A stretch of 24,579 nucleotides of DNA, from the IMG/VR virus record IMGVR_UViG_3300030451_001284, positions 1 through 24,579 of that record; one strand, given 5' to 3'. The notes beneath the pieces are model-generated. The model saw only the letters and a program-made list of their open reading frames with translations. It was not told the origin of the DNA and made no database searches. Source of the DNA: a virus. Of the stretch, positions 8,078 to 24,579 are shown piece after piece. The position numbers and the translations under genes were made by a program. Within the stretch, counting starts at the first letter, position 1. Each line of letters starts with the position of its first letter.

Positions 8078-8467
8078 ATGGCAAGTATATCACCAACACA
8101 AAGAACTCTTAAAGCCAATAAAGATCTTGGTAGAAGATGTGGTATTGTAGAACGTTGGCAGCAATATGGTGGCAAGTTCGGAGTACGACAAGATCTTTTT
8201 GGTTTTATAGACATCATAGCTATTGACGAACATTATGGTATTGTAGGTATACAATCTACAGGTCAAGATTTTTCTGGTCATGTAAAAAAAATTATGGATT
8301 TAGAAGAAGTAGTTCTAGAATGGTTGCATCATGCACCATTAGAATTATGGTCTTGGCGTAAAGTTAAGAAGGTTCGTGGGGGTAAAGCTATGATATGGAA
8401 ACCAAGAGTTGCTGACTTTTATATAGACAGTAACAAAAAAGTAGTCTATAAATTAGTAGACAAATAA
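8078..8467 (+). CDS. PD-(D/E)XK-fold nuclease-like protein
   Basis: This 129-residue protein resembles small phage proteins of the restriction-endonuclease fold. It has a helix with an invariant-looking glutamate (VERWQQYGG, E25), then RQDLFGFIDIIAID (D39, D45) and IVGIQST (Q59), followed by HVKK. The order E, D, Q-x is that of VRR-NUC and Holliday-resolvase-like nucleases, though the usual lysine after the Q is a threonine here. A role in recombination or replication-intermediate processing would fit the preceding ERF and helicase genes. GGATAATT precedes the ATG. It is the last gene before the riboswitch cassette, and a promoter for that cassette lies within its end. Confidence 0.6.
   Translation: MASISPTQRTLKANKDLGRRCGIVERWQQYGGKFGVRQDLFGFIDIIAIDEHYGIVGIQSTGQDFSGHVKKIMDLEEVVLEWLHHAPLELWSWRKVKKVRGGKAMIWKPRVADFYIDSNKKVVYKLVDK
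8424..8452 (+). promoter_or_regulatory. Sigma-70-type promoter for the riboswitch cassette
   Basis: TAGACA at 8424-8429 and TATAAA at 8447-8452 are separated by exactly 17 bases; each has one mismatch to the consensus. Transcription would start near 8459-8461, about 8-10 bases before the riboswitch aptamer. In an AT-rich genome such matches arise by chance; the position directly before a leader RNA is what makes this one credible. Confidence 0.5.
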
Positions 8468-8468
8468 T

Positions 8469-8530
8469 CCGTTCAACCGAAAGGTCGGAAGTACCACATA
8501 GTGTGGGAAGGAACGCATCGTAACTAGGAG
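8469..8530 (+). ncRNA. Glutamine riboswitch (glnA / Downstream-peptide type)
   Basis: The leader folds as a three-way junction. P1 pairs CGTTC (8470-8474) with GAACG (8511-8515). P2 is ACC-GAAA-GGT (8476-8485). P3 pairs CCACA (8494-8498) with TGTGG (8502-8506). The joining sequences CGGAAGTA (8486-8493) and GGAAGGAACGCA (8506-8517) match the conserved core I remember for the glnA and Downstream-peptide RNAs, known to be glutamine aptamers. The ribosome site AGGAG (8526-8530) lies just after P1, so control is probably at translation initiation; no terminator lies between the aptamer and the gene. Downstream-peptide RNAs typically precede short open frames, as here. Confidence 0.82.
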
Positions 8531-8536
8531 AATACA

Positions 8537-8698
8537 ATGGCAAACTTGCAATATAGAGGTGCTAAAGTTGTTCAAGAAGAAGCGATGAAACAAGATCATG
8601 TAGCTTCATATCGTGGATCAACTTATAACACAAAAGATATAGAAGCACAGCCAACAGCTACATCTGGTAATTACAGAGGTAGTAGTTGGAAAGCTTAA
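8537..8698 (+). CDS. YRG-repeat small protein (DUF4278-like)
   Basis: This 53-residue protein carries three copies of a tyrosine-arginine-glycine motif: YRGAKV (6-11), YRGSTY (25-30) and YRGSSW (46-51). The repeats resemble DUF4278, a family of short proteins common in cyanobacteria and their phages with no known activity. AGGAG lies 6 bases before the ATG, directly after the glutamine aptamer, and a strong terminator follows 4 bases after the stop, so it can be a one-gene transcript. Its product is therefore likely to be made in response to glutamine. The family match is from memory of the YRG pattern. Confidence 0.8.
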   Translation: MANLQYRGAKVVQEEAMKQDHVASYRGSTYNTKDIEAQPTATSGNYRGSSWKA

Positions 8699-8702
8699 CA
8701 GG

Positions 8703-8725
8703 AAGGAGCTTCGGCTCCTTTTTTA
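8703..8725 (+). terminator. Intrinsic terminator after the YRG gene
   Basis: AAGGAGC (8703-8709) pairs perfectly with GCTCCTT (8714-8720) around a TTCG tetraloop, followed by a run of T. This is the strongest terminator in the window and closes the riboswitch cassette. Confidence 0.9.
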
Positions 8726-8740
8726 TTTTAAGGAGGTATC

Positions 8741-8824
8741 ATGAGCTTTGAAGAACTAGAAGCATATCTTATGACATTATTAATAATGGGCTTTATAGCA
8801 GTCTTATGGGATGCATTTACCTAA
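8741..8824 (+). CDS. 27-residue membrane peptide
   Basis: AAGGAGG lies 5 bases before the ATG, an excellent ribosome site. The peptide has a short acidic head (SFEELEAYL), then one hydrophobic span (MTLLIMGFIAVLW) and the tail DAFT. It is too short for family recognition. It is the first of three single-span peptides in a row just after a terminator. A lysis-related or membrane-modifying role is possible but unproven. Confidence 0.5.
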   Translation: MSFEELEAYLMTLLIMGFIAVLWDAFT

Positions 8825-8840
8825 AGAAAGACAGGGGTTT

Positions 8841-8987
8841 ATGGAATATCTATATTTAATAATAATATTTATTTGCGTACCATTATTAACATGGATTACT
8901 ATATCCAGTACTGCAGAAGATAACGAGCAAATGCAAGACAAATGGCACGATAACAATGAAAATAAAACTATTTACAAAGATCTTTAG
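8841..8987 (+). CDS. 48-residue membrane peptide
   Basis: The peptide has an N-terminal hydrophobic span (YLYLIIIFICVPLLTWITI, about 3-21) and a hydrophilic acidic tail of 27 residues. An AGGGGT stretch 3-8 bases before the ATG is a modest ribosome site. It could be a single-span membrane protein or carry an uncleaved signal anchor. Its tail overlaps the next small gene by 32 bases. It is not recognised. Confidence 0.45.
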   Translation: MEYLYLIIIFICVPLLTWITISSTAEDNEQMQDKWHDNNENKTIYKDL

Positions 8988-9078
8988 TGACAACCCAGAT
9001 AATAATCTGATAGTATACTTTCTTTCATTCGTTACTCTGTTAGCACTACTGATAGAGTTGTTAATTATATTTAATTAG
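8956..9078 (+). CDS. 40-residue membrane peptide
   Basis: A basic head (MKIKLFTKIF) is followed by a hydrophobic span (LIVYFLSFVTLLALLIELLIIF, about 18-39) that ends at the stop codon. The start overlaps the preceding gene in another frame and has no clear ribosome site apart from a nearby purine tract. The two frames support each other only weakly, because AT-rich sequence easily encodes hydrophobic runs. The terminator that follows uses the last bases of this gene. Confidence 0.4.
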   Translation: MKIKLFTKIFSDNPDNNLIVYFLSFVTLLALLIELLIIFN

Positions 9079-9095
9079 CGACTCTATTTTTTTTT
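9054..9095 (+). terminator. Terminator overlapping the end of a small gene
   Basis: AGAGTTG (9054-9060) pairs with CGACTCT (9079-9085), with one G-U pair. An inner TAATT/AATTA pairing extends the stem, and a run of nine T follows (9087-9095). The stem contains the final codons and stop of the 40-residue peptide. Confidence 0.7.
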
Positions 9096-9111
9096 CAATA
9101 AGGAATTAATT

Positions 9112-9279
9112 ATGGCACAACTATGTAAATATAATATTGTCCACAAAGAAAGTGGAGATACTGTTACTGTTGAAGTAAATGGATTCGACAGAGATAAAAT
9201 TTTAGAAATAGCTGGCAAAGAACTGGGCAAATTTTTAGATCCAAATGTATCTGGTCAAGTAAGAATACATCCAGCATGA
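9112..9279 (+). CDS. 55-residue hypothetical protein
   Basis: AAGGAATTAATT precedes the ATG at 9112. The product looks like a compact mixed alpha/beta fold: a strand pair (KYNIVHKESGDTVTVEV), one helix (RDKILEIAGKELGKFL) and a last strand (SGQVRIHPA). I do not recognise it. It is the last plus-strand gene, lies just after a terminator, and faces the convergent minus-strand block across a 26-base gap without a visible hairpin. Confidence 0.6.
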   Translation: MAQLCKYNIVHKESGDTVTVEVNGFDRDKILEIAGKELGKFLDPNVSGQVRIHPA

Positions 9280-9305
9280 ATTTAATATTTATTTACTGGT
9301 GCTAA

Positions 9306-9500
9306 CTACATACCTTCTGCTTCTATTACAGGTACTTCAGCAGTAGATGTTTGTTTAGATTTAATAGATACTTCGACTTCAGCATCAAAGAATTTATTTA
9401 ATACTATATTAAATACAGATACTGCATCTTCTATTGTCCAGCAATGTTTGTCTTTAATTCCTACTATTGATTGATCATCTTCTATAGTAATCTTAATCAT
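9306..9500 (-). CDS. 64-residue hypothetical protein
   Basis: The ATG at 9500 is preceded by AAAGGAGATATA, a strong ribosome site, and is preferred over an in-frame ATG at 9527. The product begins with a strand (MIKITIEDDQ), has a helix (TIEDAVSVFNIVLNKFF) and a second strand (EVEVSI), then an acidic tail. The start overlaps the stop of the gene before it by one base (TAATG), so it is probably the last gene of the minus-strand operon. It is not recognised. Confidence 0.65.
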   Translation of the reverse strand: MIKITIEDDQSIVGIKDKHCWTIEDAVSVFNIVLNKFFDAEVEVSIKSKQTSTAEVPVIEAEGM

Positions 9501-9733
9501 TATATCTCCTTTATACTTATTATACATCCTTTAGGTATAGCTATCTTATCAGCTATATCTAAACTTTTATACTTACTAGTTAGTAATCTAATATAAATTT
9601 TGTTTTCAAATTCAATCCATCCTACTGTAAAACTATGTTCAGGTTCTATTGCTGCATCAGTATTAATATCAGCAGTAATATCTAGCCATTCTACTTCTAC
9701 TCTTTTTCCGACCTTAGTTTTAATTTTACGCAT
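9500..9733 (-). CDS. 77-residue hypothetical protein
   Basis: The product has a basic N-terminus (MRKIKTKVGKRVEVEW) and a beta-rich remainder (SFTVGWIEFENKIYIRLL) that suggests a small barrel. Its first 34 bases overlap the zinc-protein gene in a different frame and its stop overlaps the next start by one base, which supports coupled translation. No family is recognised. Confidence 0.6.
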   Translation of the reverse strand: MRKIKTKVGKRVEVEWLDITADINTDAAIEPEHSFTVGWIEFENKIYIRLLTSKYKSLDIADKIAIPKGCIISIKEI

Positions 9734-10179
9734 GATGATTTCTCAATATTTAAATATCTTTCACCTTGATCGTAGTACTTCTTTAGCCATTTAGGAGTTT
9801 TAACAAAATAAATTTCACCTGTTCTGTTTTGTGTACCATCTTCAACTTCAATTAAAGCTATTTTATTTTTGCCTAATTTATTCATACATTTAGGACAAAT
9901 ACCAAAACCGCCTTTAACTATTTCTCCTTCAATTAACTCTTTCATTTCCCATGATCTATCTATTGAATCACATTCAGGACAATGAACCATTCCATCTTCT
10001 TCTGTATCAGGAGGTAAACCATAAGTAACAAAATTACAACTAGGACAAATATATTTATAATTCATATTTCCTAAAGGAACGTTCCCTAGTTTGTATTGAT
10101 CTTGACAGATAACGCACATATTAACAACAGGTCTAATGTTTGCGCCAAATTTTGAATGAGGTTCTATTCTTTTAGTCAT
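9697..10179 (-). CDS. Four-knuckle zinc-binding protein
   Basis: This 160-residue protein has four CxxC knuckles, at C22/C25, C45/C48, C67/C70 and C95/C98, enough for two zinc sites in ribbon or rubredoxin-like folds. The last 60 residues lack cysteine and end in a basic stretch (KSSCVKLKLRSEKE). The start overlaps the stop of the phosphoesterase gene by one base (TAATG). Nucleic-acid binding is the most common role of such ribbons, but the family is not recognised. Confidence 0.75.
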   Translation of the reverse strand: MTKRIEPHSKFGANIRPVVNMCVICQDQYKLGNVPLGNMNYKYICPSCNFVTYGLPPDTEEDGMVHCPECDSIDRSWEMKELIEGEIVKGGFGICPKCMNKLGKNKIALIEVEDGTQNRTGEIYFVKTPKWLKKYYDQGERYLNIEKSSCVKLKLRSEKE

Positions 10180-11174
10180 TATAAAACTACCCCGTCAATT
10201 ATTCTTTTGTTTACTACTGCAAATTGTTTACCATATAATTCAATAGTTGCAAAGCCATGATTCCATTTATTAAGTACAGCATACTCTGGTCTCATATCAC
10301 ATAAACATCCTATTGACCAACAATGAACGTGTTTATCATCAGCATTTTTAAATGAATGTTCTGATGTTTGATGTCTATGTCCTGCCATTGCACATACACC
10401 CAAATTGGTTTGTAAAGTTCTAGCAAAGTTAACAGGTGCAGTAGAATTAAATAACTCATGTCCATGTAATATAGTTAAGTGTGGTCCAGCTTTTGTTTTT
10501 TGTTTTCCTTTAACTTCTTCTACACCATACTTAGAAAAATTTAAAAGATTATACATTTCAAATTCAGAACAACCACATAACTCAGGAGCCTTTAACCACA
10601 TATATTTTTCCCATCGTTCTTCATGGTTACCTATTTTATAAATGATTCTACAATGAGGGTAGCGTTCTCGAAGATGCTGGAGAAATTGTCTACACAATTG
10701 CAACTCTCTAGGTAAGTTACGTTCTGCAGGATTCTTTTCCCATCTAGAAATAGAGAAGAAATCAGAAGCATCTCCATTTAAATATATACAATCAGGATCA
10801 TAGCTATCTCCAAAAGTTAAAGCAGCTTCTAAAGCTTTGTCATCATGATATGGTATATGGACATCAGACAGCACTAAAGTTTTTCCTTCTGGTAATTTAA
10901 AATCTTTATGAGGTTCTGCTATACTTTTAGGTAATTCCATTTTAAATCCTGCTTTACCATTTTCTCTAAATGTTTTTTCATAAGAAGTTTTTGCGGTCTT
11001 CCTATCTCTTTCACCTTTATTACCTCGTCTATATCTAATCATACTTCTAACATTTTCTAATGCAGTAAACTGTTCAGGATATTCTTTGTATAATTTTTTA
11101 GCTAGTGTCATTGTTGGAGCATCAGGAAATTCATTCAATGCTTGTATAACAATTTCATTTTTTACATCATCCAT
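10179..11174 (-). CDS. Calcineurin-like metallophosphoesterase with an N-terminal HTH-like region
   Basis: This 331-residue protein has the full set of metallophosphoesterase motifs: SDVH (D104, H106), LNGD (D135), GNHEE (182-186), LHGHE (about 233-237) and AGHRHQ (about 263-268). These residues bind two metals and cleave phosphoesters, with substrates ranging from nucleotides to DNA. The first 60 residues (EIVIQALNEFPDAP, TLAKKLYKEYP) look like a winged or helix-turn-helix segment ending in a basic stretch, so DNA may be the target. AAAAGGAGAAAG precedes the ATG. It overlaps the DUF5664 gene by 8 bases. Phages often carry such enzymes; the substrate here is unknown. Confidence 0.88.
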   Translation of the reverse strand: MDDVKNEIVIQALNEFPDAPTMTLAKKLYKEYPEQFTALENVRSMIRYRRGNKGERDRKTAKTSYEKTFRENGKAGFKMELPKSIAEPHKDFKLPEGKTLVLSDVHIPYHDDKALEAALTFGDSYDPDCIYLNGDASDFFSISRWEKNPAERNLPRELQLCRQFLQHLRERYPHCRIIYKIGNHEERWEKYMWLKAPELCGCSEFEMYNLLNFSKYGVEEVKGKQKTKAGPHLTILHGHELFNSTAPVNFARTLQTNLGVCAMAGHRHQTSEHSFKNADDKHVHCWSIGCLCDMRPEYAVLNKWNHGFATIELYGKQFAVVNKRIIDGVVL

Positions 11175-11451
11175 TTTCTTTCTCCTTTTCTATTTGTTTT
11201 TGTAGATTTGCTAATGCTCTCCAGGCAACTGCATCCCAGTCACCATCTATTAAATGACGCATCAATGCATCAAGTTCATCTCCTGATTTACTTCTATCCC
11301 AGAAAGTAGGTTTGCCAGGATTATGTTGTTGAGAACCAACATAGCTGATTTTAGATACAGCAGCTATAGCGTCAGGAAAGTATTTAATTACACCAGAATA
11401 AACAGGAAAAGTTTTTCTGGCATCAGAATCACTACCGAAAGGACTACTCAT
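11167..11451 (-). CDS. DUF5664 protein (dATP/dGTP diphosphohydrolase N-terminal-like)
   Basis: This 94-residue protein matches the pattern I know for DUF5664: ARKTFPVYSGVIKYFPDAI (11-29), then HNPGKPTFW (43-51), KSGDELDALMRHL (55-67) and WRALANLQ (77-84). The family is named after the N-terminal part of a phage dATP/dGTP diphosphohydrolase; many phages carry it alone. The likely role is in the nucleotide pool or as part of a MazG-like hydrolase, but the activity of stand-alone forms is not clear. AAGGAG lies between the giant gene's stop and this ATG, only 9 bases apart, so the two are co-transcribed. Confidence 0.75.
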   Translation of the reverse strand: MSSPFGSDSDARKTFPVYSGVIKYFPDAIAAVSKISYVGSQQHNPGKPTFWDRSKSGDELDALMRHLIDGDWDAVAWRALANLQKQIEKEKENG

Positions 11452-11460
11452 TTTATCTCC

Positions 11461-14400
11461 TTATTGTTGTGTTGCTCGTTTCCAAGCCTTTGCCCATGCT
11501 GTATTTAGCTTTATTTTTTTCTCAATGTCAAGCTTTCTTCCAGAATCTTCTAGTCTTCCTTCAACAGATCTCTTTAAATCTTGGAAACTAGTTTTTAGTT
11601 TCTGTAAATACAGAGCATTTTTTGCCATTCCTTTTTCATCACCTTCTTCTAAAGCTAAATAAAAGTCTTTATAATATCTTGCTCTAGCCATAGATACTCC
11701 ACCTTTAAATACTTCTCTAGGATCATATCCATTTATTTCAGCAGCTTGTACAATATCTGATACTAAATTTTGTAGGAATGGTTCTTCTTTAACTAATCCT
11801 TTTATATTAGCTTTGAATCCATCTTTAACATATGCATCCATAACTTCTGCTATTTCTTTTTTAGCAGCAAAACCACTCTTACCTAATTTCATAGGTGCAA
11901 AGAATGATAAAGGTTTAGCTCTAGTAGGATCTCCTTTAGCATCTATTAAAGTTTGTAGTGATAAAGGTATAAACTTTCTAACAATAAATGATGCTCTTCC
12001 ATCATATATATTTCCATTTGCTGCAAACCAAGATTCTAAGAATGGTGTATCTGCCCAAGGAACTTGCCATCCAGGTTTTATTATACCAAACATTTGTTCC
12101 ATTGCTATCTTTGCACCAATAGATGATTTACCTAATGCTGTATCTACTGGATTTCTTAACCAACCTTTAGGACCAAAGACCTCAAATGCCTGTTTACCAA
12201 ATGCCATATAAGTTCTTCGTTGTCTAGTCTTACCTATATGTTCATAGATACCCATTGTTCTCCATAAAGGTGTCATATCAATATGTAGTTTATGACCTTT
12301 TTCATTATTAAATGAGAACATTTCATCATCTTCATCATCATTACCTGTAGCTTTTGCTAATCCATATATTAAAGCTTGTATAACATTTGGTATACCAATT
12401 AATACTATTCCACCAAAAGCACCCCAATATCTAGTCATTCTATTTCTAGCATGGAGTTCACTTGTTGGAGAACCAATTGCTTTGTTAAGACTATCTATAT
12501 GAGTAACACCTGCTACATTTAATGCAGACAATGTCCAGTCAGGTGCAAACATTAATAAGTGTAAGTGTTTGCGCATACGAGGGTTAGCCCACATATACTT
12601 CTCCCATTCTTGTCCACCAAATGCATCATTAAGATATTCAGATATTTCTTCTCTTAATTTTTTCTCATCTATTATATCGCCATACACATCAGTTCTTCTA
12701 GCTAACTCTACTGAGAACAATCTATTAGCTGCATATAACTTCATTCCTGGTAACATAACTTCCCATAATAATCTATCTGATTGCCATTTAAGATTAGCTA
12801 CAGTTCTCATGCCGTGACCAAAGCCTTTAGATATTAAGTTTTTACTTTGAATCATTTTATTTGCTTTATTAATAAAACCTTCATGAACCATAGCATAATC
12901 AATATCGGGAGATCTTCCTGTATCAAATCCCATACCTGCTTCAACCCATTCTCTAGAATATTCTGGATTCAATATAGTAGCTCTGTACTCTGCCATTATA
13001 TCTTTATAGGTTCTTATAGGATTAAATATTAAGTTACCTTTAAATACACCACGTTTTTCTAAACCTGTTATTCCATCTAATGCAATTAAAGATTCTACTA
13101 ATGCAAATGGATGGAAAAGAGATAGACTAATACTCATAGATTTAGCTATATGGTTTAATGATAACAATGCATTATAAGCTTTACTTCTAAATCTAGTTTT
13201 AAATTCTCTTTGATCAGCAAAGATATGACCCATTAACTTAACAGGATCACCTTTCTTAACATAAGCAACACCAAGAGAAGCAAAACCTGTATCTACTATT
13301 TCATATCCTAGTTTTTTAGGATTTAAATCTCCTTTAAGTTCACCTGTTAAATCATTTAATCTTTTAAATCCGTTTATATTTTTAGGTGTAGTAAACTTAT
13401 GTTCAGGTTTAATAAACGAAATAGCTTTTTCTAATCTATTTGCTATTACATGAGCTGATTGTTCAGTCATTACACCCATGCGTTCTATACCATCAATTAA
13501 CATCATGGGTAACATATCTTCATCAGACACTTGTGCCATAGCACTAACACCAATTCTGTTTCTAACTACCTTTGATACTTCAACAGAATAGTTATCTAAC
13601 AATGCAGCTAAATCTAAATTCTTAGGAACAAGTCCTTTAGTTAAGAAAGCCTCTAAATATGTATTATATTTTCTAGCTTTCTCTTGTCTTGCTGTTTCTT
13701 TTTCAAACTGTGTAAATTTCTTTTCTTTTTCTAAAGGTTCATATTCATGTGGTACATAATTACTTCTTTTAGCAAACCATAACTCACCTATATATCCACT
13801 AATACTTTCTAATGCATCATATTGATCTCCAAATATTTTATTTAGTTTTTCATATAATGCATCAGTATCAGATACATCTATTAAATGAGGAGCATTTTCT
13901 TCTTTCCAAAATTGCCATTCAGTAAATACTTCTCCTACAGTCCTACCTATTGCATCACTAGGATTTCTTTTAACTACCTTACCTGTTCTTTCTTGTTCTG
14001 CTAATCTTTCTTTTTCTTTTGCTTGATCTACTTCTAATATTCTAACTTTTCTCCAATCAACATTTGGGTCTTTATAATGCTCTAAAAATAATGTGAATGC
14101 TTTTCTTAATTCAATACCACGTTGATTTGAATCTCTTGTTTTTTTAATTATTTTAACTTTTTTAACTGGTTTGTATTTACCAGTTTTTTTTCTTTCATCC
14201 ATTATTTTTTTATTTGCTTCTAAATCTTTTGGATCCATGTAATTAGCAGAACCTGTTTCCATAAGTAATACTGTTCTTGCTGCTCTGCCTAGATTAATTA
14301 ATACTTTACCTTCTCTTGTAGCTTTAAGTAATGCCTTTTGCATTTCTTGTGAACCATAAGCAGGTGACATATTATTTAATAGTGATGATGTTTCTAATAC

Positions 14401-17400
14401 TTTATCGAAGGTTGCAAATGAATAAGATATTTCTGTTGGTTCTTTTACTTCTTCTACTGTTTTATTTGTTAATTGGAATTTAGTAGGAACTCCGTTTACT
14501 AATCTAATTACTTTTTTAACCTGACCTAGTAATGCAAAATCTTCTGCAGATTCTATTCTATTGATAGTTTTATATTGATCTCCAGGAGTACCCATAATAT
14601 CTGCAATATCTATCTCATAACTAGCTAGTTCTTCATCTATATTATTAGATAATATATATTCTCTAGCTTCTAATTCACTAATACCTTTAGTAGCTCTTTG
14701 TGTTTGTAATAAAACAGATGGAGCTTTGTCATTAGATACATTATCTATTGATTGTTTAAATGCATTATATTCAACTAATGAATCTAATAACTTATTAAAC
14801 TCTAATTCTTTTGCACGATCATCAGCACTTCTTCTCATCTTTTTATTAAAATCTATAATATAATTATAAAGATCTGCTTCTTCTTCCATTTTTTTTGTAA
14901 AATCTTCTCCAAAAGGAAAATAAGGTTGAGGACCATCTCCACCTTCTTGCGCTCGGTTTCCATAATCATAATAATATTTTTCTACAACTTCATCACCAAG
15001 TGCGCTCATATGAAAAACAGCAACAGGTTGTAATACAACATTGCTTAAAGAAACATCACCTCCACTAGAGTCTGAAGGTAAATCACTTCTGTTAAATACA
15101 TAAACCATATCTCCATATCCATAATCATCAATAGGAGCAAATGGTGTTACACCTCCAGCTCCCAAACCTTCTTCAACAATTGATATTCTTTCAGAACTTC
15201 TATGAAATAAAAATTGATCAAAACCTTTACCTTTTTTTAAACCTTGTATTATAACTTGTGCTAAGTATTCAGCTTTATCTTTATCCTGTATCTTTAATAT
15301 AGACTCTATAGCTAGATTGTAAGTACCATTATTTATCTGTCTTAATATATTTTTATTTATATTATTATAATTAATAACTATTTGTGATTGTATATTACCA
15401 GGTAGATCACCCAAGTTAGGTAAATCTTTTAAAACATTTTTTACAGATTCAGCAGTTTGTTTAATCATATCATTTTTATAAGCTTTAGGAATAGGCGATT
15501 TAGTGCTACTAAATTTGCTACCCTTATGTTGCTCTATAAATGCATCTAAAATGCTGTTAAAATGAATCCTCGTGCCTTCTGGGGGTATTTCTATACCGTT
15601 CTTAGCAAGAGCCTTTATTAAATTAGGAGGTAATACCTGAACATTTGCAAAATCTTTATTAAAAGACATATGATCTGTAAGACCTAAAGTAAGATCTTTA
15701 TCTACAGATATGCTGTAAGTCATATTCTTAGACTCAACTTCACTTTCAACCATTCGTTTGTAGCTAGGTAACTTACTGCCAATGTCTAAAATATCCTGCA
15801 TAGTACCATCTTTAGTAATAAGATTTTCTTCTCTAAAAGTCTGTACTGCTGTATCAAAAGGAGTAATTTTTCTTTTAGCTCTTGGAGATAGTTTTAATCT
15901 TTTTTCTACAATTTTAGCTTCTACTTCACCAAGTTCTCCTCTATATTTAGTATATAAAACATTCTCTATGTATTTGTTTTTAGTAAAAGCATTTTCTCTT
16001 TCATATAAATTTTTTATTATTGCATCTAGTTCATTATATCTATCTATTTCTGATCTATCTAAAGTTCTAAGAATCATTTCATACATTTTACCACGAGCTA
16101 ATTCTTTTGTTTCTGGACTGGTAATCATTTCATAATATGCTTTTTCTTCTAGTTCAGACATAGCACTTAACTTTATTGCTTTATGTTCTATTTCATCTTT
16201 TTGTCTTCCTAATTGTCTAATTAATTTTATTCTTTCGTTATTTGTATTACTACCTAGTTCTGTAAATCCAGAAACATCTTGTATAGCGTGTTGAATCTCA
16301 TGTAATAAAGTAGATAGTAATTCTTCTTCAGTAGCTGGTATTAATATATTCTTTCCATTTTCATCTATAGATGGTCTGCTAAAGTTTAATTTAATTATAG
16401 CAGATGATAAATGTGTTTTATGTGTATACTCTCCAAGTGGTTTATTAAATGAAGTAAAACTACCCATACTTATTACTTTTATATTTTTTAGTTCTGGATA
16501 AATTTCAAATAAATTTGGATGATTTAATATTTCTTCTAGTCTGGCTGTGCCAGTATCAATTTTCATTTCTAATGGTCTTAGTATAGATTTAAATCTACCA
16601 ATCTTTCCAGGAGTAGTTACTTTGTATTTAAATTTTGCTTTAGAATCATCTAGTTCATATCTTATTTTTCCATCAGGACCCCATCTGTATAACCCTGTTC
16701 TTAAAAATATTTCTTCAATATCTAATCCCATTTCTTCAAGTTCTTTTATTTGCTCTTCGGCAAAAGCAACAGCACTAGGATCTTTAATTCTATCTAATGA
16801 AATCATAGAATAAGTTATATCTTCATCTATTCTATCAGATAAAGGATTTATATTTTTGTATGCAGCTGCCTTAGCATCAGCATCACTCATTCCATTAAAT
16901 ATTAATTTAGCTTTTTCTAATAAATATTCTGAATATCTTGTGATATTATTAAATTCAAATCCATCTGTTCTATTATTTTGATACTCTCTAGCTATTTGAG
17001 AATAGTTTATAATTACAGTTTCAGCACCTTTTCTTTTTTGTATTTGAATATTTCTAGCTAGATTGGTTTGTACAATAACAGGCATTGATTTTATTTTACC
17101 ACCAAATCGTTTAGATTCTTTAACTAAACTTTCTAGATCTTGTTTTTTTATTTCTGTTTTAGAAATTTCTCGTTCTATTAAATCTTTTGTATTAGTAGTA
17201 GGTGTTTCTAAATCTAACTCTGGTTGTGCTTCATCTACTTGTTCTTTAGCAAAACGATTAAATGATGGGAAGATGTTTAAAAATTCTCCAGTTATTTTAT
17301 AAGTAGATCCTGATATTACAGCATCTTGCAAAGCTTCTAAATTTCTAGATAGATCACTTAAATTTATATATGAGTTTATAGCTAAAGGCATACCTTCATT

Positions 17401-20400
17401 TATAAATTTACTAAATTGATTACTAAAGAATGGACTCCAGTTTCCATTCCAGTTACTAGATCCAAGTCCAAACTGTATATAAGATACTGTAGCTAAAGCT
17501 ATTTTTTCTTCTATAGGTAATGCTTCAAAATTATTTCTTTGATATTCTATTTCTTCTTCATTAAAATCTTTTTCTTTTAATCTTGATGATAAAGAAAATA
17601 AACCTTTATCTTCATCGTATATAATATTTTTAACTAATTTATTATTTTTACTTCTAGTTTTACCTTCAGCTATTTTAGTAACTAAAGCATTTTGTTCTTT
17701 TAACCAAGATGAAAATGTTTTAGTAGAGTTTGATTTTTTATATAATGATTTTACTGCAATTAAAATATTAATAATATTAGATTGATAATCTGCATTACCA
17801 ATATATTTTTCTAAAATATTTTCAGGTGTTTCTTGTTGTTTTTCTTCAGCTGATTTTTTTGCTAATCTTTCTATTAATTTAGCCTCAATAGTATTTGAAA
17901 ATACATTTAAATATTCTTGTATTGCATTTTCAGCTGAAGTAAATAATGGATTATTTTCTATAACTTCAGAAAAATTAAATAATTTAAATCCATTAGTATA
18001 AGATTCAAGTAAAGATATTAATTTATTTACATCAGTTGGAGTTTGCATAGATGCTTTTAAAAATGCAGTTACATCAAATGCATTCTTAGTAAAACTATCT
18101 ATGTTAGAAAAGAACTCTTGATGTTCTTTCATAAGATTTTTATCATGAGAAATTTTCTTATTAGTAATTTTATTTTCTTTTTGTAATTCTTTAAGTGCTT
18201 TAAAATATAATTTATTATATTCACCTGATTTTAATTTAACTGGATTTCTAATTTCTATTTCCTCACCATACTGATTATAATATGTATAAGGTTCTTCTTT
18301 TAACATTTTTTTCATACGCTGATTAATTGTAACAAAATCAGATTTTATAAATGTAATAATATCTCTAGTTCTTTTTGCTACTTGTGTAGAATAAAATTCT
18401 GAGTTCTCATTACTTAAATCAGTAGCAGTAATATTACTCATTACAAGTGAAGCAAACATGGATGCAGTATCACGATTTAAATTAGCAAAAAATAATCTAG
18501 GATCTTTATGATCATCTAGTGCAATGTTTAAAACTGTATCTAAAACTTTTTTAACACTTCTATAAGAAGCTAATTGTATTTGATGAGGAGATCGTAAAAG
18601 AATTTTATTACCATTTATATCTTCAAATTCAAAAGAAGCCTCATCTAATTTTACATCTATTATTCCATCTTCAGAAGCATTAACTGATAAGGCAGAATAC
18701 ATAGAGTTATATACAGCCATTATACCTATAACTTTATTTCTAATATAGTTTATTTCTGTAGCATGACCTATACCTTCTACTGTACCAAGTCTTAGTTTAG
18801 TAAGTATTGGATCAGATGTTCTATCTATCGCTTCATCAAAAGCATCTTTAGGTATTTCTCCTTGTTCATTATATAAATCAAATGCATCAGGATTAATCCA
18901 AGCCATATGCTCAAGTAATAAAGCTCTATTTTGCAAAGTGTTTTCGTCATTCTTTTTACTAAATGTAAATGCTAAATTAAAATTCTTACCCTTTGGATCT
19001 ATTTCTAATTCACCAGTTTCTTCATTTTTTCTATATATTCCTGCTGGTACATTATCATCAATTCTTCTATGCAATACTAAAGAGAATCCTTTGTCACCAT
19101 CAAGGTCTTCTCCCATACCTATTCTTATTCCATCATTAGGTATAGCGATATTTGAGTTAACAAATTTAGTACTAACAGGTTCATTTAATCTGTTAAAAGA
19201 ATGTGAAGCATATGATCCTGAGGGTACTCTTGTTCTATCAATAATTTCTCCAGGTATAATCCAATCACCGTTAGAGTCTTGATCGAGTTCATGCTCCATA
19301 ACATTTTTAAAGTCAGGCGTTCCATCTTCTTTAACCCAAAACATATCAGCATAAAATCTTTTATATGTTTTAATAAAATCAATAGCATCTTCTTTTTTCT
19401 TAAAAGGATTACCATTTTTATTAGTTTTAGTTGCGTATCTACCACCACGAATATTAGCATTTAATCTAGCTAACTTAACAACTTGTTGACCATTTGCAGT
19501 TTCTATTACATTATATCCTGGTAAACCAATACTGCCTTCACCAATTGTTTGAGTAGATATACGTTGCCCTATATGTTTAGATAATTCTTTTACATTAGAT
19601 AATAAACTCTTTAATATTTCAGAAGCAAATCTTGTATCATTTACTATATCTTCTCCGTTATTAGCAGACCGTTGCATTTGTGGACTAGAAAAAGAACCAG
19701 GTTTAAAATCTTTTCTAGGTTTAGCTAATCTTTGTTCTGCGGCTTGTCTTCTTAATTCAGCAGCTTTTGATCCTGCATTATCGTAATTAACTATTACTAG
19801 TTCTTCTTCTCCATCTTTATTTTCAATTTTATTTACAATAGGAGAAAATGGTAAATTTAAAGCAGCAAAGTGTGCCATTCTTTGACTAGGTATAGCACCT
19901 ACATGATCTGTAGAATTATCATGATGTAAGTCAACAGATATAATAAGGTTATTACCTTTATCATAAGTTACTATTTTGGCTGCTTCATTCTTTTTATAAT
20001 TAGTTTCTGGTATTATACTATACTTAGCACCTGACTCAAATACTACAGCTTCTATTTGGTTGTTTGCATTTTCTTTTTTACTGTTATGAGCATTAACATA
20101 ATCTAATATCTCTTTCATTTCAGGAATTGTTTCAGCTAGTAACTCTAAACTATGCCAGTTAACTTTAACTAAGTTTCTTTGATTACCATCTGTATTAGAT
20201 ATATGACCTTTAACATTATCATTTTCATCTAATAATCTTTCATCTTGAATGTCATCTAATTTAGATTGCGTAAATACAGCTAATCCATCAAAAGCATCAC
20301 TACCTTCATCAGCAATACTAGCTATTTCTGGTACACGAATAACATTTAATGAACCTTGATATGCTTCACCATCTGTTAATACTTGAGAAGTTCTAGCTAC

Positions 20401-23400
20401 AATATTTAAATAATTATATGCAACTAACTGATCAGCAGTTTTACCTTGTGCTTTTTTCTCTGATAACATATATGCAGATATGTCACCATGCATAGCTTGC
20501 ATTAATGCTGGAGTATTAACAGCATAATGCATATCTATTATATCTTTTTGAGAAATAGTAGATTGAGATAATATTTTATTTACAAGTTTTACAGGATCGG
20601 GATATAAATTTTTAGCATCATCACTTGCAAGTTTATTGATTATATCTTTAGCAAGCAAAGCAGCTTTTCTTATACCTTCTTTATCTATAGTAACTTCACC
20701 AGTAGATTGATCTACAGTACCATATAACTTTTGAATAATAAAAGGTGTAGCACTCTTTTCACCAAACCTACCCATATGATGTAAATAAACAGGCATACCT
20801 GCACTATTACTTAAGTTACCTCTTGCACTTTCTTTAAATACAAAGTTGATAGTTTCGACCATATCATCATAGCCAAATTGTCCTGTATCTTTGTCATACT
20901 CAAATCCATCAAGGAATTGAATAAATCTAAATTTCATTTTTTCTGCTTGTTCTTCTGTAAAACCAAAGTCTTTAAATAATTGATTAAATAAATTATCAAA
21001 GTGAGAATCACCTCTAACTGCAGATTTTTGAGAGCCTTCTACATTTGTAAACATAGGAGAGTTTTTAAGTATACCTAAATCAGATTCCATTATAGCTCTA
21101 GTTATAGAGTTTGCTCTACCAAAGCTTTGTTCTCTAAAGTTTCTATCTCCCTTTTTGCCAACACTTTCTCTAGCACCATCTAATATAGTATCTCTAATTA
21201 CTCTTGTTTTCTTTGGATTTTTTAAATCTTCTGATTTAATTAATAGCATTGTCTTAACAATAAGATTGTCATTCTTATCATTTATATCCACAAGTAAATC
21301 AGAACTAACACCAGTATATTGTTCTACTATTTTAAATATCTGACTTATATCTACTTCATCTATTTTATCTTTTGCTATTATCTCTAATAAAATATTATTG
21401 TATTCATCTCTAGTAATAGGATTGTCATCTGATTCTGTAGAGTTAGCTATAATTTCTTTTAATAAATCAACACTATTTGAAACACCCATTTTTTCTAAGT
21501 TGCCATCTTTATCTTTAAACAGTTTAAAGAATCTGTATGTGTGTAAAGATTTATTTGACTTATCAAACTTTAGAATAGACTTATAAGTCATACGTTCTTT
21601 TGTATCTACTCTTTCTCCTGTAGCAGTTGTCTTAATACCATTACCTATATCTCTAAGTAATATAGCAGTAGAGTTTGTTTGTTCTGTATTTAAGAAATCT
21701 TTCCAAGCTTCTTCAGAAGAAATAGCTGTTTTAAACCAATTAGTAAAAGATATATCTCTAATTATTCTTCTACCATTTTTGTTTCCTTTTCTTTTAATTA
21801 TTTCTAATGCTATTTCATTTTTAAAATAATAAATCTCTGCATGATCACTATCAAATTCCATATCAGAATTTAATGACTCAGTTAAATCTTCAGCTAACTC
21901 ACGAAGTTTTTGTTCATTAGTCATGTCATCAGAAAATAAATTAAATAATAATTGACCATCTGATGTTCCATCAAAGCTTGACATACTATAAGTAATGTTA
22001 GGATTAGTTGTATGTATTCTTCGTATAACTGCTTTGATTTTACCGAATGTTAATGTTTCGTTTTCGTATTCTTTATTTAATATATTTAATACTTTTTTAG
22101 CTAACTCTTCTTGTTCTACTGTAAGAACACCGCTTTTAATTTGTTGCTCAACAACTTTAATAGCTTCTTCTTTAGCCTTCTTAACTTTTCTAGATTGTCT
22201 TTTTAATTTTTTAGCAGGAGTATCAGGTTGTTCTTCTAAGAATTTTTCTACTGCTTTTTTACCTTTAGATTGTTGTTCATCAAGTTCATCAGAAACTTTT
22301 TCTGATTTATAATCATCCATTTTATTTTTAAGATTATCTTTTGTTTTACCAGAATAAGAAGCTAATACTGCTTTATCCATAACCTTTAAATCAGATTCTG
22401 TTAATATATCTATTAAATTTAAAACAGTATTATTAGCAGCTCTAGATTGTTCACCATATAAACCTTGAGTAATAGCTATGAATGCTTCAAACCCACTAGT
22501 ATTATCTAGATAGTTTAATATCTCTTTAGCTTGATCTACATTGCCAGATATAGTTCCTTCTATAATATTAGAAGCTCTTATTTTAAATCTATTAATAGCT
22601 TGTGTTACAAATTTGTTTTCTTTTTTAGTTAAGTTTTTATTCTGATAATTTATTTCAAGAGCCTCTTCTTCAATAACTCTTGCGCCTTCTAGTAAATTAT
22701 CTTCATCACTAGTAAATGCACTAACACCACCAATAACAATTTCATTATTAAGATTTCTTGCTTGAATAACAGCAACTCCACCTTTAGATATTTGTCTACC
22801 ACCAGCGTTAATATCTGAATCAGCCATTAATAAAGTAGAGTTAGCATATGATATTTTTAAATCTGGATTATTAACTAATTCATTTAATATAGAGTTAACT
22901 AAATTATCTAATCTTTTATCAGTTAATCTAATTAAATCTTTACCTTTTTGTTTTGAAGTAGTAGGAGATATTATTCCTCCTCTTTCATTAATTTGATCTT
23001 TAAATTCTTTTATTGCTTGTGCTTTTTTTTCTTTAAAATTTTTACCTGGACTTATTCTAATTTGTTCAGCAAGTTTTTTTAAAGATGAAATATCTAATTC
23101 TGATTTATTATCTATAACAGATTGATCAAGTTCATTGATAGATGAAGATGTTTCAACAATTGTTTGACTTTCTAATACTTGTTTTAATTCTGGTCTTTTT
23201 TCTATTAACTCAGCTTTTCTTTTAGCATCTATTCTAAATGCTTGAGTTACAAACTGACCTCTATCTGTTTCTTGTAATTGAACTCCTGCTATTTGTTTTT
23301 TACCTTTTGCAAAACTAAAAGGTTTTAAATCACCTGAAACAATTAATTCATCAAGTGCTTCAGCACTTTCTTTAGTATCTGCAAATCTTACTACAATTGA

Positions 23401-24579
23401 TTGACTTACTATTTCCTTAATAGCTTTTTTATCTGCAATTGCTTGTGGCATAGGAACTTTTTTTATAGTTCCATCAGGTTGTGTTTCATCTACTGTTTCA
23501 TTTTCTTGTAATTCAGCAGATCTTCTATCTACTTGGTCCACTAATTCTTGAACATTTCTAATACCTAATCCTCTATTAATTAGATAATCTTGTTGTCTTC
23601 CTGGTCTAAGAATTGCACCAACTATACCTTTTTGATACCACTTTTTATTTTTACCAAATTGAAAGATAGAGTTTACTACTCCTTCTGTTTCATCAAACGC
23701 ATCTGCTAAATCTTTAAGTTCTGCAGTTCCACCTCTTTGAAATTTTATATAGTTATTAATTGTTTCTAATTCTTTTTCAAACTCAGTACCTAATTTGTTA
23801 CCTCTTAGTTTGTTAATTACACCTACACCAGCAGGAAGAATACCTACTGATATTAATATAGCAGCAGCTTGATCTGGATATTTAACAGGAAATAATACTG
23901 AATCAAGTATACCTTCAGCATAAGTCATTCCTCTTTCTTCACGACTATCTTTTTCTAAGTCGAGAATAGAACTTGCTACCATTTCAATATACTCTTCAGA
24001 AGCTTCTTCTAATACGCCACCTATTTGAGTTGTGTTTCTAAACTCTTTAAAGAACTTACCTCTACCAGCAAGAGCCATACCTACAGAATCTTCTTTAAAA
24101 AATTTATCTACTCTTTTAGCAACTGTACTACCACCAATAACTCTAGCTACTGATGTATCTGCAATTTTAGCAACAGCAGTAGATATTCCTTTTTGTATTC
24201 CAGTAGCTTTAATTAATTTACTTGCGTATTCAAAACCAACTGTTTCTACTAAAACTGCAAGAGCAGCTTGTGCTTCTCTTCTTGCAAGGTCAGTCATGTT
24301 TGTTTCATCAAACTCAAACTCACCTGTTGCTTCATTAAAAGTTACTGATTCTAATTCTTCTTGTCTTAAATCTTTAAATACTTGAGGTTGTTGTGTACCT
24401 AAAGCTAAACCACCAATAGTTAGTCTTCCTCGTTTTGATTTTAAAAAGTTTTCAGCATTTGCTTGAAATTGTTCTGCCATAGAAGTTTTAAGGAAAAGAG
24501 CTTTATCTTTACTTTTAGGTAAAAATCTTTTATCTGCTTGTTCTAAAATATATTGAGCTTGTTCTTTTGTTATTCTAAA
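11461..24579 (-). CDS. Giant multi-domain virion-type protein with an RNA polymerase-like core (partial, N-terminus off the right edge)
   Basis: One reading frame runs from the stop at 11461 to the right edge, 4372 sense codons. The first ATG in view (24480, residue 1 in this annotation) has no ribosome site, and the 33 codons before it read as normal protein (ITKEQAQYILEQADKRF), so the real start is outside. Order of parts: helical N-terminus with a hydrophobic segment near 201-225; charged coiled-coil region about 730-800; RNA polymerase-like core about 1361-2011; helical region to 2550; HExxH module about 2646-2747; ADP-ribosyltransferase-like region about 3074-3177; helical, membrane-prone C-terminus. 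Such giant phage proteins (large polyvalent proteins, crAss-like gp66, N4 virion polymerase) are packaged in the particle and injected. Five small genes follow it in the same operon. The ORF is certain; domain functions are inferred. Confidence 0.9.
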   Translation of the reverse strand, partial: FRITKEQAQYILEQADKRFLPKSKDKALFLKTSMAEQFQANAENFLKSKRGRLTIGGLALGTQQPQVFKDLRQEELESVTFNEATGEFEFDETNMTDLARREAQAALAVLVETVGFEYASKLIKATGIQKGISTAVAKIADTSVARVIGGSTVAKRVDKFFKEDSVGMALAGRGKFFKEFRNTTQIGGVLEEASEEYIEMVASSILDLEKDSREERGMTYAEGILDSVLFPVKYPDQAAAILISVGILPAGVGVINKLRGNKLGTEFEKELETINNYIKFQRGGTAELKDLADAFDETEGVVNSIFQFGKNKKWYQKGIVGAILRPGRQQDYLINRGLGIRNVQELVDQVDRRSAELQENETVDETQPDGTIKKVPMPQAIADKKAIKEIVSQSIVVRFADTKESAEALDELIVSGDLKPFSFAKGKKQIAGVQLQETDRGQFVTQAFRIDAKRKAELIEKRPELKQVLESQTIVETSSSINELDQSVIDNKSELDISSLKKLAEQIRISPGKNFKEKKAQAIKEFKDQINERGGIISPTTSKQKGKDLIRLTDKRLDNLVNSILNELVNNPDLKISYANSTLLMADSDINAGGRQISKGGVAVIQARNLNNEIVIGGVSAFTSDEDNLLEGARVIEEEALEINYQNKNLTKKENKFVTQAINRFKIRASNIIEGTISGNVDQAKEILNYLDNTSGFEAFIAITQGLYGEQSRAANNTVLNLIDILTESDLKVMDKAVLASYSGKTKDNLKNKMDDYKSEKVSDELDEQQSKGKKAVEKFLEEQPDTPAKKLKRQSRKVKKAKEEAIKVVEQQIKSGVLTVEQEELAKKVLNILNKEYENETLTFGKIKAVIRRIHTTNPNITYSMSSFDGTSDGQLLFNLFSDDMTNEQKLRELAEDLTESLNSDMEFDSDHAEIYYFKNEIALEIIKRKGNKNGRRIIRDISFTNWFKTAISSEEAWKDFLNTEQTNSTAILLRDIGNGIKTTATGERVDTKERMTYKSILKFDKSNKSLHTYRFFKLFKDKDGNLEKMGVSNSVDLLKEIIANSTESDDNPITRDEYNNILLEIIAKDKIDEVDISQIFKIVEQYTGVSSDLLVDINDKNDNLIVKTMLLIKSEDLKNPKKTRVIRDTILDGARESVGKKGDRNFREQSFGRANSITRAIMESDLGILKNSPMFTNVEGSQKSAVRGDSHFDNLFNQLFKDFGFTEEQAEKMKFRFIQFLDGFEYDKDTGQFGYDDMVETINFVFKESARGNLSNSAGMPVYLHHMGRFGEKSATPFIIQKLYGTVDQSTGEVTIDKEGIRKAALLAKDIINKLASDDAKNLYPDPVKLVNKILSQSTISQKDIIDMHYAVNTPALMQAMHGDISAYMLSEKKAQGKTADQLVAYNYLNIVARTSQVLTDGEAYQGSLNVIRVPEIASIADEGSDAFDGLAVFTQSKLDDIQDERLLDENDNVKGHISNTDGNQRNLVKVNWHSLELLAETIPEMKEILDYVNAHNSKKENANNQIEAVVFESGAKYSIIPETNYKKNEAAKIVTYDKGNNLIISVDLHHDNSTDHVGAIPSQRMAHFAALNLPFSPIVNKIENKDGEEELVIVNYDNAGSKAAELRRQAAEQRLAKPRKDFKPGSFSSPQMQRSANNGEDIVNDTRFASEILKSLLSNVKELSKHIGQRISTQTIGEGSIGLPGYNVIETANGQQVVKLARLNANIRGGRYATKTNKNGNPFKKKEDAIDFIKTYKRFYADMFWVKEDGTPDFKNVMEHELDQDSNGDWIIPGEIIDRTRVPSGSYASHSFNRLNEPVSTKFVNSNIAIPNDGIRIGMGEDLDGDKGFSLVLHRRIDDNVPAGIYRKNEETGELEIDPKGKNFNLAFTFSKKNDENTLQNRALLLEHMAWINPDAFDLYNEQGEIPKDAFDEAIDRTSDPILTKLRLGTVEGIGHATEINYIRNKVIGIMAVYNSMYSALSVNASEDGIIDVKLDEASFEFEDINGNKILLRSPHQIQLASYRSVKKVLDTVLNIALDDHKDPRLFFANLNRDTASMFASLVMSNITATDLSNENSEFYSTQVAKRTRDIITFIKSDFVTINQRMKKMLKEEPYTYYNQYGEEIEIRNPVKLKSGEYNKLYFKALKELQKENKITNKKISHDKNLMKEHQEFFSNIDSFTKNAFDVTAFLKASMQTPTDVNKLISLLESYTNGFKLFNFSEVIENNPLFTSAENAIQEYLNVFSNTIEAKLIERLAKKSAEEKQQETPENILEKYIGNADYQSNIINILIAVKSLYKKSNSTKTFSSWLKEQNALVTKIAEGKTRSKNNKLVKNIIYDEDKGLFSLSSRLKEKDFNEEEIEYQRNNFEALPIEEKIALATVSYIQFGLGSSNWNGNWSPFFSNQFSKFINEGMPLAINSYINLSDLSRNLEALQDAVISGSTYKITGEFLNIFPSFNRFAKEQVDEAQPELDLETPTTNTKDLIEREISKTEIKKQDLESLVKESKRFGGKIKSMPVIVQTNLARNIQIQKRKGAETVIINYSQIAREYQNNRTDGFEFNNITRYSEYLLEKAKLIFNGMSDADAKAAAYKNINPLSDRIDEDITYSMISLDRIKDPSAVAFAEEQIKELEEMGLDIEEIFLRTGLYRWGPDGKIRYELDDSKAKFKYKVTTPGKIGRFKSILRPLEMKIDTGTARLEEILNHPNLFEIYPELKNIKVISMGSFTSFNKPLGEYTHKTHLSSAIIKLNFSRPSIDENGKNILIPATEEELLSTLLHEIQHAIQDVSGFTELGSNTNNERIKLIRQLGRQKDEIEHKAIKLSAMSELEEKAYYEMITSPETKELARGKMYEMILRTLDRSEIDRYNELDAIIKNLYERENAFTKNKYIENVLYTKYRGELGEVEAKIVEKRLKLSPRAKRKITPFDTAVQTFREENLITKDGTMQDILDIGSKLPSYKRMVESEVESKNMTYSISVDKDLTLGLTDHMSFNKDFANVQVLPPNLIKALAKNGIEIPPEGTRIHFNSILDAFIEQHKGSKFSSTKSPIPKAYKNDMIKQTAESVKNVLKDLPNLGDLPGNIQSQIVINYNNINKNILRQINNGTYNLAIESILKIQDKDKAEYLAQVIIQGLKKGKGFDQFLFHRSSERISIVEEGLGAGGVTPFAPIDDYGYGDMVYVFNRSDLPSDSSGGDVSLSNVVLQPVAVFHMSALGDEVVEKYYYDYGNRAQEGGDGPQPYFPFGEDFTKKMEEEADLYNYIIDFNKKMRRSADDRAKELEFNKLLDSLVEYNAFKQSIDNVSNDKAPSVLLQTQRATKGISELEAREYILSNNIDEELASYEIDIADIMGTPGDQYKTINRIESAEDFALLGQVKKVIRLVNGVPTKFQLTNKTVEEVKEPTEISYSFATFDKVLETSSLLNNMSPAYGSQEMQKALLKATREGKVLINLGRAARTVLLMETGSANYMDPKDLEANKKIMDERKKTGKYKPVKKVKIIKKTRDSNQRGIELRKAFTLFLEHYKDPNVDWRKVRILEVDQAKEKERLAEQERTGKVVKRNPSDAIGRTVGEVFTEWQFWKEENAPHLIDVSDTDALYEKLNKIFGDQYDALESISGYIGELWFAKRSNYVPHEYEPLEKEKKFTQFEKETARQEKARKYNTYLEAFLTKGLVPKNLDLAALLDNYSVEVSKVVRNRIGVSAMAQVSDEDMLPMMLIDGIERMGVMTEQSAHVIANRLEKAISFIKPEHKFTTPKNINGFKRLNDLTGELKGDLNPKKLGYEIVDTGFASLGVAYVKKGDPVKLMGHIFADQREFKTRFRSKAYNALLSLNHIAKSMSISLSLFHPFALVESLIALDGITGLEKRGVFKGNLIFNPIRTYKDIMAEYRATILNPEYSREWVEAGMGFDTGRSPDIDYAMVHEGFINKANKMIQSKNLISKGFGHGMRTVANLKWQSDRLLWEVMLPGMKLYAANRLFSVELARRTDVYGDIIDEKKLREEISEYLNDAFGGQEWEKYMWANPRMRKHLHLLMFAPDWTLSALNVAGVTHIDSLNKAIGSPTSELHARNRMTRYWGAFGGIVLIGIPNVIQALIYGLAKATGNDDEDDEMFSFNNEKGHKLHIDMTPLWRTMGIYEHIGKTRQRRTYMAFGKQAFEVFGPKGWLRNPVDTALGKSSIGAKIAMEQMFGIIKPGWQVPWADTPFLESWFAANGNIYDGRASFIVRKFIPLSLQTLIDAKGDPTRAKPLSFFAPMKLGKSGFAAKKEIAEVMDAYVKDGFKANIKGLVKEEPFLQNLVSDIVQAAEINGYDPREVFKGGVSMARARYYKDFYLALEEGDEKGMAKNALYLQKLKTSFQDLKRSVEGRLEDSGRKLDIEKKIKLNTAWAKAWKRATQQ
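12330..13190 (-). other. Helical C-terminal module with membrane-prone segments in the giant protein
   Basis: Residues about 3764-4051 include SISLSLFHPFALVESLIAL, a long helix with WQSDRLLWEVMLPGMKLYAANRLF, then YLNDAFGGQEWEKYMWANP and HLLMFAPDWTLSALNVAG, and a hydrophobic span with GGIVLIGIPNVIQALIYGLA (about 4023-4042). I recall the NDAFGG...APDWT pattern from the C-termini of many giant phage proteins (large polyvalent protein domains). The function is unknown; membrane or virion-core association fits. Confidence 0.5.
14416..14430 (-). repeat. ISYSF boundary motif 4
   Basis: Residues 3351-3355, in EISYSFATFDK, after the possible ART-like module and before the helical C-terminal third. 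Confidence 0.45.
14950..15260 (-). other. Possible ADP-ribosyltransferase-like module in the giant protein
   Basis: Residues about 3074-3177 contain FLFHRSSERISIVEEGLG, then YGYGDMVYVFNRSDLPSD and VVLQPVAVFHMSAL. The order of a strand with H-R, a glycine-rich turn and YGDMVYVF recalls NAD-binding ART folds common in such phage proteins. No decisive R-S-E triad can be assigned by eye, so this stays tentative. Confidence 0.3.
15709..15723 (-). repeat. MTYSI boundary motif 3
   Basis: Residues 2920-2924, in NMTYSISVDKD, between the HExxH module and the possible ART-like module. Confidence 0.5.
16240..16545 (-). other. HExxH metallopeptidase module in the giant protein
   Basis: HEIQHAIQ places a zincin HExxH at residues 2727-2731 (bases 16288-16302), followed by SGFTELGSN. 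Before it come HPNLFEIYPELKNIKV and a strand-rich stretch with THLSSAIIKLNF. The set resembles the peptidase-like domain of large polyvalent phage proteins (LPD type). It could process the giant protein itself or attack host proteins after injection. Confidence 0.7.
16804..16818 (-). repeat. ITYSM boundary motif 2
   Basis: Residues 2555-2559, in DITYSMISLDR, between the helical region after the polymerase-like core and the HExxH module. Confidence 0.5.
18450..20400 (-). other. Single-chain DPBB RNA polymerase-like core in the giant protein
   Basis: Several spaced motifs agree with two-barrel polymerases of the YonO/crAss gp66 kind. TDGEAYQG lies at 1369-1376. VVFESGAKYS has a lysine at 1486 where the first barrel carries a catalytic lysine. 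SVDLHHDNSTDHVGAIPSQR follows. RVPSGSYASHS (from 1751) leads to IAIPNDGIRIGMGEDLDGDK, whose DLDGD (1792-1796) corresponds to the metal-binding D-x-D-G-D loop of cellular beta-prime subunits. After it come NKVIGIMAVYNS and IALDDHKDPRLFFANLNRDT, as in remembered relatives. If active, it would let the virion bring its own transcription machinery. A degenerate or structural derivative cannot be excluded by eye. Confidence 0.65.
21982..21996 (-). repeat. ITYSM boundary motif 1
   Basis: Residues 829-833 of the giant protein, in NITYSMSSFDG, directly after the charged helical region and before the polymerase-like half. Confidence 0.5.
23806..23880 (-). other. Hydrophobic segment near the N-terminus of the giant protein
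   Basis: Residues about 201-225 contain AAAILISVGILPAGVGVI, long enough to cross a membrane. It follows a glutamate-rich helix (GGVLEEASEEYIEMVASS), an arrangement I have seen near the N-terminus of other giant phage virion proteins. It could help the protein enter the host membrane during ejection; this is inference. Confidence 0.45.

Follow-up and report, generated by a model that had tools for sequence, protein, structure and literature searches.

We found that a 24.6-kb virus record (hereafter the window, the whole analyzed stretch of 24,579 nucleotides) encodes on its minus strand a giant protein that is very probably a polyvalent virion protein containing a two-barrel DNA-dependent RNA polymerase (RNAP) core of the crAss gp66 type, injected into the host and transcribing the first phage genes. 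The homology of the core and the invariance of its putative active-site residues are supported by sequence comparison. Analogy with known systems suggests that the core is active as a polymerase, and gene position together with precedent points to packaging of the giant chain in the virion and to its injection.

The core occupies approximately residues 1260-2030 of the giant protein (window ~18,390-20,705, minus strand). Its features are listed below; fractions give the conservation of D1398 and of the lysines in the 7 family members that cover these sites and in 49 crAss-type enzymes, respectively.

18361-20718, minus strand: two-barrel RNAP core, modelled region, residues 1255-2040 (hhalign, AF2, Foldseek)
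20287-20289, minus strand: D1398 of DAFDGQA, corresponding to the crAss TDAQ motif (D in 7/7 and 48/49)
20209-20211, minus strand: K1424, first-barrel side, equivalent to gp66 K1012 (K in 7/7 and 49/49)
20164-20166, minus strand: K1439, first-barrel side, equivalent to gp66 K1027 (K in 7/7 and 49/49)
20023-20025, minus strand: K1486 in SGAK, equivalent to gp66 K1065 (K in 7/7 and 48/49)
19198-19230, minus strand: RVPSGSYASHS, residues 1751-1761, crAss RIPTQxxxS motif (all 58 sequences have R1751 and P1753)
19129-19149, minus strand: IAIPNDG, residues 1778-1784
19093-19107, minus strand: DLDGD loop of the second barrel (residues 1792-1796), predicted to bind the catalytic Mg2+, equivalent to gp66 D1361/D1363/D1365
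18466-18525, minus strand: IALDDHKDPRLFFANLNRDT, residues 1986-2005, crAss VDNxKDPxxxxLNxNT motif (hhalign-aligned; D1989 conserved)

The initial annotation had reported a DLDGD loop preceded by RVPSGSYASHS and IAIPNDG and followed by IALDDHKDPRLFFANLNRDT, and all four elements are located as it described. It had also proposed K1486 in SGAKYS (20017-20034) as the lysine of the first barrel. This residue is conserved, as one of three such lysines, and K1424 and K1439, which are more constant in the alignment, may equally be candidates for the first-barrel catalytic lysine. Across the 58-sequence alignment, R1751, P1753, D1792, D1794 and D1796 are invariant, and D1398, K1424, K1439, K1486 and D1989 are nearly invariant. 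A DxDGD motif by itself carries little weight; judged from the alignment, the joint conservation of the motifs in 58 sequences is beyond chance. The family has its own signature, GED(L/F)DGD, compared to GSDFD(I/V)D of the crAss-type enzymes.

Using hhalign, we compared a profile of 8 family members to a profile of 8 crAss-type RNAPs and obtained a match over 607 columns (E 2.3e-16) at a probability of 98.7%, with all motifs in identical order; the match of the family profile to 53 diverse IMG/VR enzymes with the GSDFDxDK motif reached 98.9% (E 1.1e-17, 616 columns). The control profiles (one reversed and 10 column-shuffled) scored 12-17, compared to 146.6 for the real profile. When the block from RVP to DxDGD was deleted, the score was still 111.8, and the parts N-terminal and C-terminal of this block, each used alone, matched at the correct location (E 8e-6 and E 2e-8, respectively). 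The window protein is about 12-16% identical to the crAss-type rows; multi-sequence profiles were required, and single gp66 or crAss001 sequences yielded weak hhalign matches. The family profile gave only background scores against single sequences of P23-45 gp96, YonO, RpoB and RpoC. Against the single P23-45 gp64 sequence, the E value was 0.008, at a position outside the motif. The lack of signal to gp96, YonO, RpoB and RpoC, combined with the strong crAss match, suggests that the nearest known family is crAss gp66; thus, of the two comparators originally named, gp66 is the right one, and YonO, at background in the single-sequence comparison, is not.

Searches of PDB, Pfam and PHROGs with the window sequence alone found no RNAP match (phmmer against PDB returned a MarR protein only), and an hmmsearch of PDB sequences with the family-only profile gave nothing convincing. 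A combined profile matched 6vr4 with E 7e-179; this match was given no weight for the window family, as that profile consists mostly of crAss-type rows. Calmodulin matches of the same profile in PDB (E > 0.001) were taken as noise. The matches from tblastn in phages, one in the capsid gene of Methylophilales MEP301 (E 0.1) and one to S-RIM2, were attributed to chance; the sole plasmid match was in Sinorhizobium (E 0.2).

An AF2 model of residues 1255-2040, built from 58 rows, had a pLDDT of 84 and a pTM of 0.82. Since 49 of these rows are crAss-type, the model is a confirmation and not a fully independent proof. In Foldseek, the best solved match of this model was 6vr4_A (E 4.3e-18), followed by the two-barrel enzymes RDR2, QDE-1, P74 gp62 and P23-45 gp64. 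The two-barrel homology of the crAss gp66 type that the initial annotation had proposed is supported by the controlled profile-profile match and by a confident model with 6VR4 as the top solved match. Among models, the top match in BFVD was the viral protein A0A516MBM4 (TM 0.78, E 2e-52, 29% identity), which was predicted without the present alignment; as a comparison of predicted structures, this match is more independent than that of the 58-row model to 6vr4_A. The presence of A0A516MBM4 in BFVD indicates that the family is in public databases, yet unannotated. With the 8 family rows only, the AF2 model was poor (pLDDT 49), with much of the first-barrel side at 75-90; Foldseek produced no significant match for it, although proteins with a double-psi barrel occur repeatedly in its list. 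Two double-psi barrels in one chain are a confident prediction of the 58-row model, judged from the pTM and the Foldseek ranking.

A search of IMG/VR with the window sequence recovered two contigs at 46-47% identity, G001 (53.6 kb) and G002 (46 kb), and scans with the DNA pattern for GED(L/F)DGDKG and with alignments added L024/L027, L026/L030, L031, L032, L033 and L048. The most distant relatives are ~20% identical over the core. The nine-member branch is monophyletic and forms its own clade apart from the crAss-type enzymes (support 1.0). All branch members found are uncultured contigs: INPHARED isolates contained no match to the core or to the C-terminal module, and GTDB genome contigs contained no relative. 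An HMM search for the core in the genomes of Rhizobium phage RHph_TM3_14A, HMO-2011 and Aeromonas 1233, run without a positive control, found none; the 2,307-aa giant protein of RHph was rejected as a candidate, having no DxDxD and a single weak match, to the C-terminal part of one relative. We found no description of this branch in the literature searched, which mostly did not extend to subscription journals and supplementary family lists.

The genes of the window and the parts of the giant chain outside the core are as follows.

786-8467, plus strand: replication/early-type operon with AAA ATPase, DUF2201 metallopeptidase/VWA protein, ERF annealing protein, DnaB helicase and small genes (Pfam)
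9697-10179, minus strand: small protein with a zinc-ribbon-like cysteine pattern (sub-threshold matches; conserved position)
10179-11174, minus strand: calcineurin-like phosphoesterase downstream of the giant gene (Pfam PF00149; same position in relatives)
11461-24480, minus strand: giant virion-type (polyvalent) protein, one ORF of 4339 aa from the first ATG (ORF listing, translation; N-terminus outside the window)
11464-14790, minus strand: C-terminal module, residues 3231-4339, the best conserved part among relatives
16285-16305, minus strand: LHEIQHA, an HExxH zinc-metallopeptidase motif, residues 2726-2732 (kept in L001, L027 and L030)
16627-16746, minus strand: LPD23 (large polyvalent protein associated) domain, residues 2579-2618; its Pfam match, PF18838, lies above the cut-off with E 5e-7

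The frame of the giant ORF is still open at the window end. In the relative L001 the protein starts 422 aa earlier, and in L027, a relative with both ends, it has ~4570 aa; because both reach further N-terminal, the window lacks the N-terminus. The chain unites LPD23, which is also present in the L027 giant protein (E 3e-11), with the RNAP core and the HExxH motif, i.e., several domains of polyvalent proteins. Judging from its motif, LHEIQHA may represent a zinc metallopeptidase. Eight relatives were examined for HExxH, which is found in the giant proteins of the window, L001, L027 and L030 and was not seen in those of L031, L032, L033 and L048, some of which are incomplete; the peptidase is therefore no constant partner of the RNAP core. 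The C-terminal module is 53% identical to L024 and 40% to L026, and its last ~750 residues have a 27% match in L048. It should be noted that both ends of the G001 contig (L008-L010) lie inside the giant gene and have the peptide YGRANKAY in common, the DNA not being identical; this ~53.6-kb contig looks near-complete, and its full giant protein would have ~5,200 aa and take up near 30% of the genome. In G002 (7375-13048; L002 near 12000-12419), where the contig has unresolved bases, the giant ORF passes into a short-chain dehydrogenase-like fragment, a junction that is probably an assembly chimera and not biology.

The genes of the window are syntenic with those of G001 (42-89% identity), including the conserved gene order of the plus-strand operon. 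In G001, terminase, portal, scaffold-like, P22-type capsid and further structural or unknown genes (including a glycosyltransferase) precede the giant gene on a single strand; the giant gene comes immediately after late structural-type genes and is itself followed by a small gene, the phosphoesterase and the zinc-ribbon-like gene. TerL, portal and MCP of G001 match proteobacterial podophages (Rhizobium RHph_TM3_14A, HMO-2011 type, BcepC6B, Vibrio and Pseudoalteromonas phages) and are not of the crAss type that defines Crassvirales; the window itself is without these genes. The earlier impression that the surroundings are not those of a crAss-like genome agrees with these matches.

A real two-barrel core could belong to a non-virion RNAP that is synthesized inside the infected host to transcribe middle or late genes, given that Thermus phage P23-45 has both virion and non-virion two-barrel enzymes (PMC10770324). 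However, the core is buried in a giant chain whose gene lies just downstream of genes of the head/tail type, the chain carries LPD23 and HExxH, as injected proteins do, and non-virion enzymes, of which P23-45 gp64 (616 aa) is an example, are small and form proteins of their own; we consider a non-virion enzyme improbable. The chance that the barrel fold is catalytically dead or repurposed, retained only to bind DNA or to form a structural component of the ejection machinery, appears slight. The family is indeed very divergent from the crAss-type rows, but the covering members and the 49 crAss-type enzymes keep R1751 and P1753, together with the aspartate triad and the lysines of the first barrel, while the rest drifts, a pattern that is hard to explain without catalysis. 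Archaeal PolD has the two-barrel fold, and a non-exhaustive scan of window and G001 genes, which include DnaB and ERF, recognized neither a DNA polymerase nor a second RNA polymerase. Nonetheless, the closest enzyme by both sequence profile and structure is the DNA-dependent RNAP 6VR4, and PolD is not among the listed best fold matches, such that a PolD-like DNA polymerase or primase for replication is a highly improbable reading. Finally, DxDxD loops are known from EF-hand-like sites and the single-sequence searches gave no RNAP match, but we assign next to no probability to DLDGD being an exposed Ca2+-binding-like loop of an unrelated domain, with the other motifs a coincidence, because this is contradicted by a profile match of >600 columns that outlives deletion of the DxDGD block and by a fold search that gives two-barrel polymerases.

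An injected virion RNAP, the reading we favor, can be compared to several known systems. Like the window protein, gp66 of crAss-like phage phi14:2 and its Crassvirales homologs (6VR4) are single chains with two barrels in a large virion-type protein, gp66 being annotated as structural by MS, and the motif order is the same (DAQ/DAFDG, conserved lysines, S-x-x-K, RxP...S, GxDxDxDK, D..KDP...LNxNT). The window family differs in its low identity, signature, separate clade and a phage outside Crassvirales, and in that its core lies in a chain of 3.5-5 thousand residues, with LPD23 and HExxH in several members. The 5,002-aa tape measure protein gp96 of P23-45 likewise is a giant virion protein with a DxDGD two-barrel RNAP and is annotated with a metallopeptidase domain (PMC10770324). 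No profile match to gp96 was detected, however, its core is N-terminal and not internal, and P23-45 is a long-tailed phage, whereas the window lineage has podophage-type genes. The coliphage N4 virion RNAP is also a giant injected polyvalent chain encoded among late virion genes, in which the polymerase nearly always has a metallopeptidase domain fused to it (PMC5512222). It is a T7-like single-subunit enzyme, whereas the window core matches two-barrel enzymes in fold and has no Pfam or PHROG match to the T7-like type. YonO of Bacillus phage SPbeta is a single-chain two-barrel RNAP (PMC5467207); unlike the window protein, it is not a giant virion protein, and its single sequence gave no profile match. 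Flavobacterium phage Fpv1, not placed in Crassvirales in its record, carries an RNAP motif of the crAss type (GLDYDIDK) in an annotated virion structural protein of ~4,400 aa (gp33, L038); in contrast to the window family, it was detected by direct tblastn with crAss001. Fpv1 is a cultured phage and could serve in the laboratory as a model for giant virion proteins that carry an RNAP.

We propose that the giant chain would be expressed late along with the head and tail genes, incorporated into the virion and ejected with the DNA. The first barrel would contribute the conserved lysines K1424, K1439 and K1486, and the second barrel the DLDGD loop, whose aspartates would hold the catalytic Mg2+. 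As the genome enters, the two-barrel core would transcribe the first phage genes before the host polymerase is used. The plus-strand operon (786-8467) is its presumed template, with the AAA ATPase, DUF2201/VWA, ERF and DnaB genes as likely early targets. More tentatively, and with a rather low probability, a proteobacterial-type podophage lineage might have swapped an N4-type T7-like virion polymerase for an independently acquired, divergent crAss-type enzyme in a self-processing (HExxH) chain of ~5,000 residues. In that case, with no other polymerase recognized across the ~54-kb genome, most phage transcription might depend on this single injected chain.

Injected two-barrel RNAPs have been demonstrated for crAss-like phages and one Thermus phage, and multisubunit versions are known in jumbo phages. 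Thus, giant virion proteins with two-barrel RNAPs are already known, and the window branch is not a new category; what is new is that it belongs to another phage lineage, has diverged deeply as a branch apart, and has a signature and accompanying domains of its own. The occurrence of such a deep sister branch in phages with unrelated head and tail genes shows that this enzyme type is broader than its known group, and supports repeated acquisition or exchange among phage groups. The branch also adds sequences for the question of origin, i.e., the link to the eukaryotic RNA-interference polymerases QDE-1/RDR2, and it offers a testable prediction for a protein unannotated in family databases, with a residue map (three lysines, R1751, DLDGD) usable for mutagenesis.

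Several minor observations were made. Between the convergent operons, ~1.2 kb (8467-9697) is without long ORFs and contains several terminator-like hairpins. Scans for repeats and promoters gave no candidate promoter for the polymerase; sigma-70-like sites showed no enrichment and no clear depletion. In the operon, the AAA ATPase is located near the DUF2201 metallopeptidase/VWA protein (2773-4083 and 786-1853), and ATPase and metallopeptidase genes are likewise annotated near each other in RHph_TM3_14A. A scan of IMG/VR with the DNA pattern for G(S/T)DFD(I/V)DK (L056-L135) gave at least 80 matches, and 74 of the 80 listed score against the crAss-type two-barrel RNAP profile; the ORFs around many of them have 2,000-4,200 aa, and short contigs carry some of them. 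This suggests that the crAss-type two-barrel RNAP family is much larger than known, and partly unassigned.
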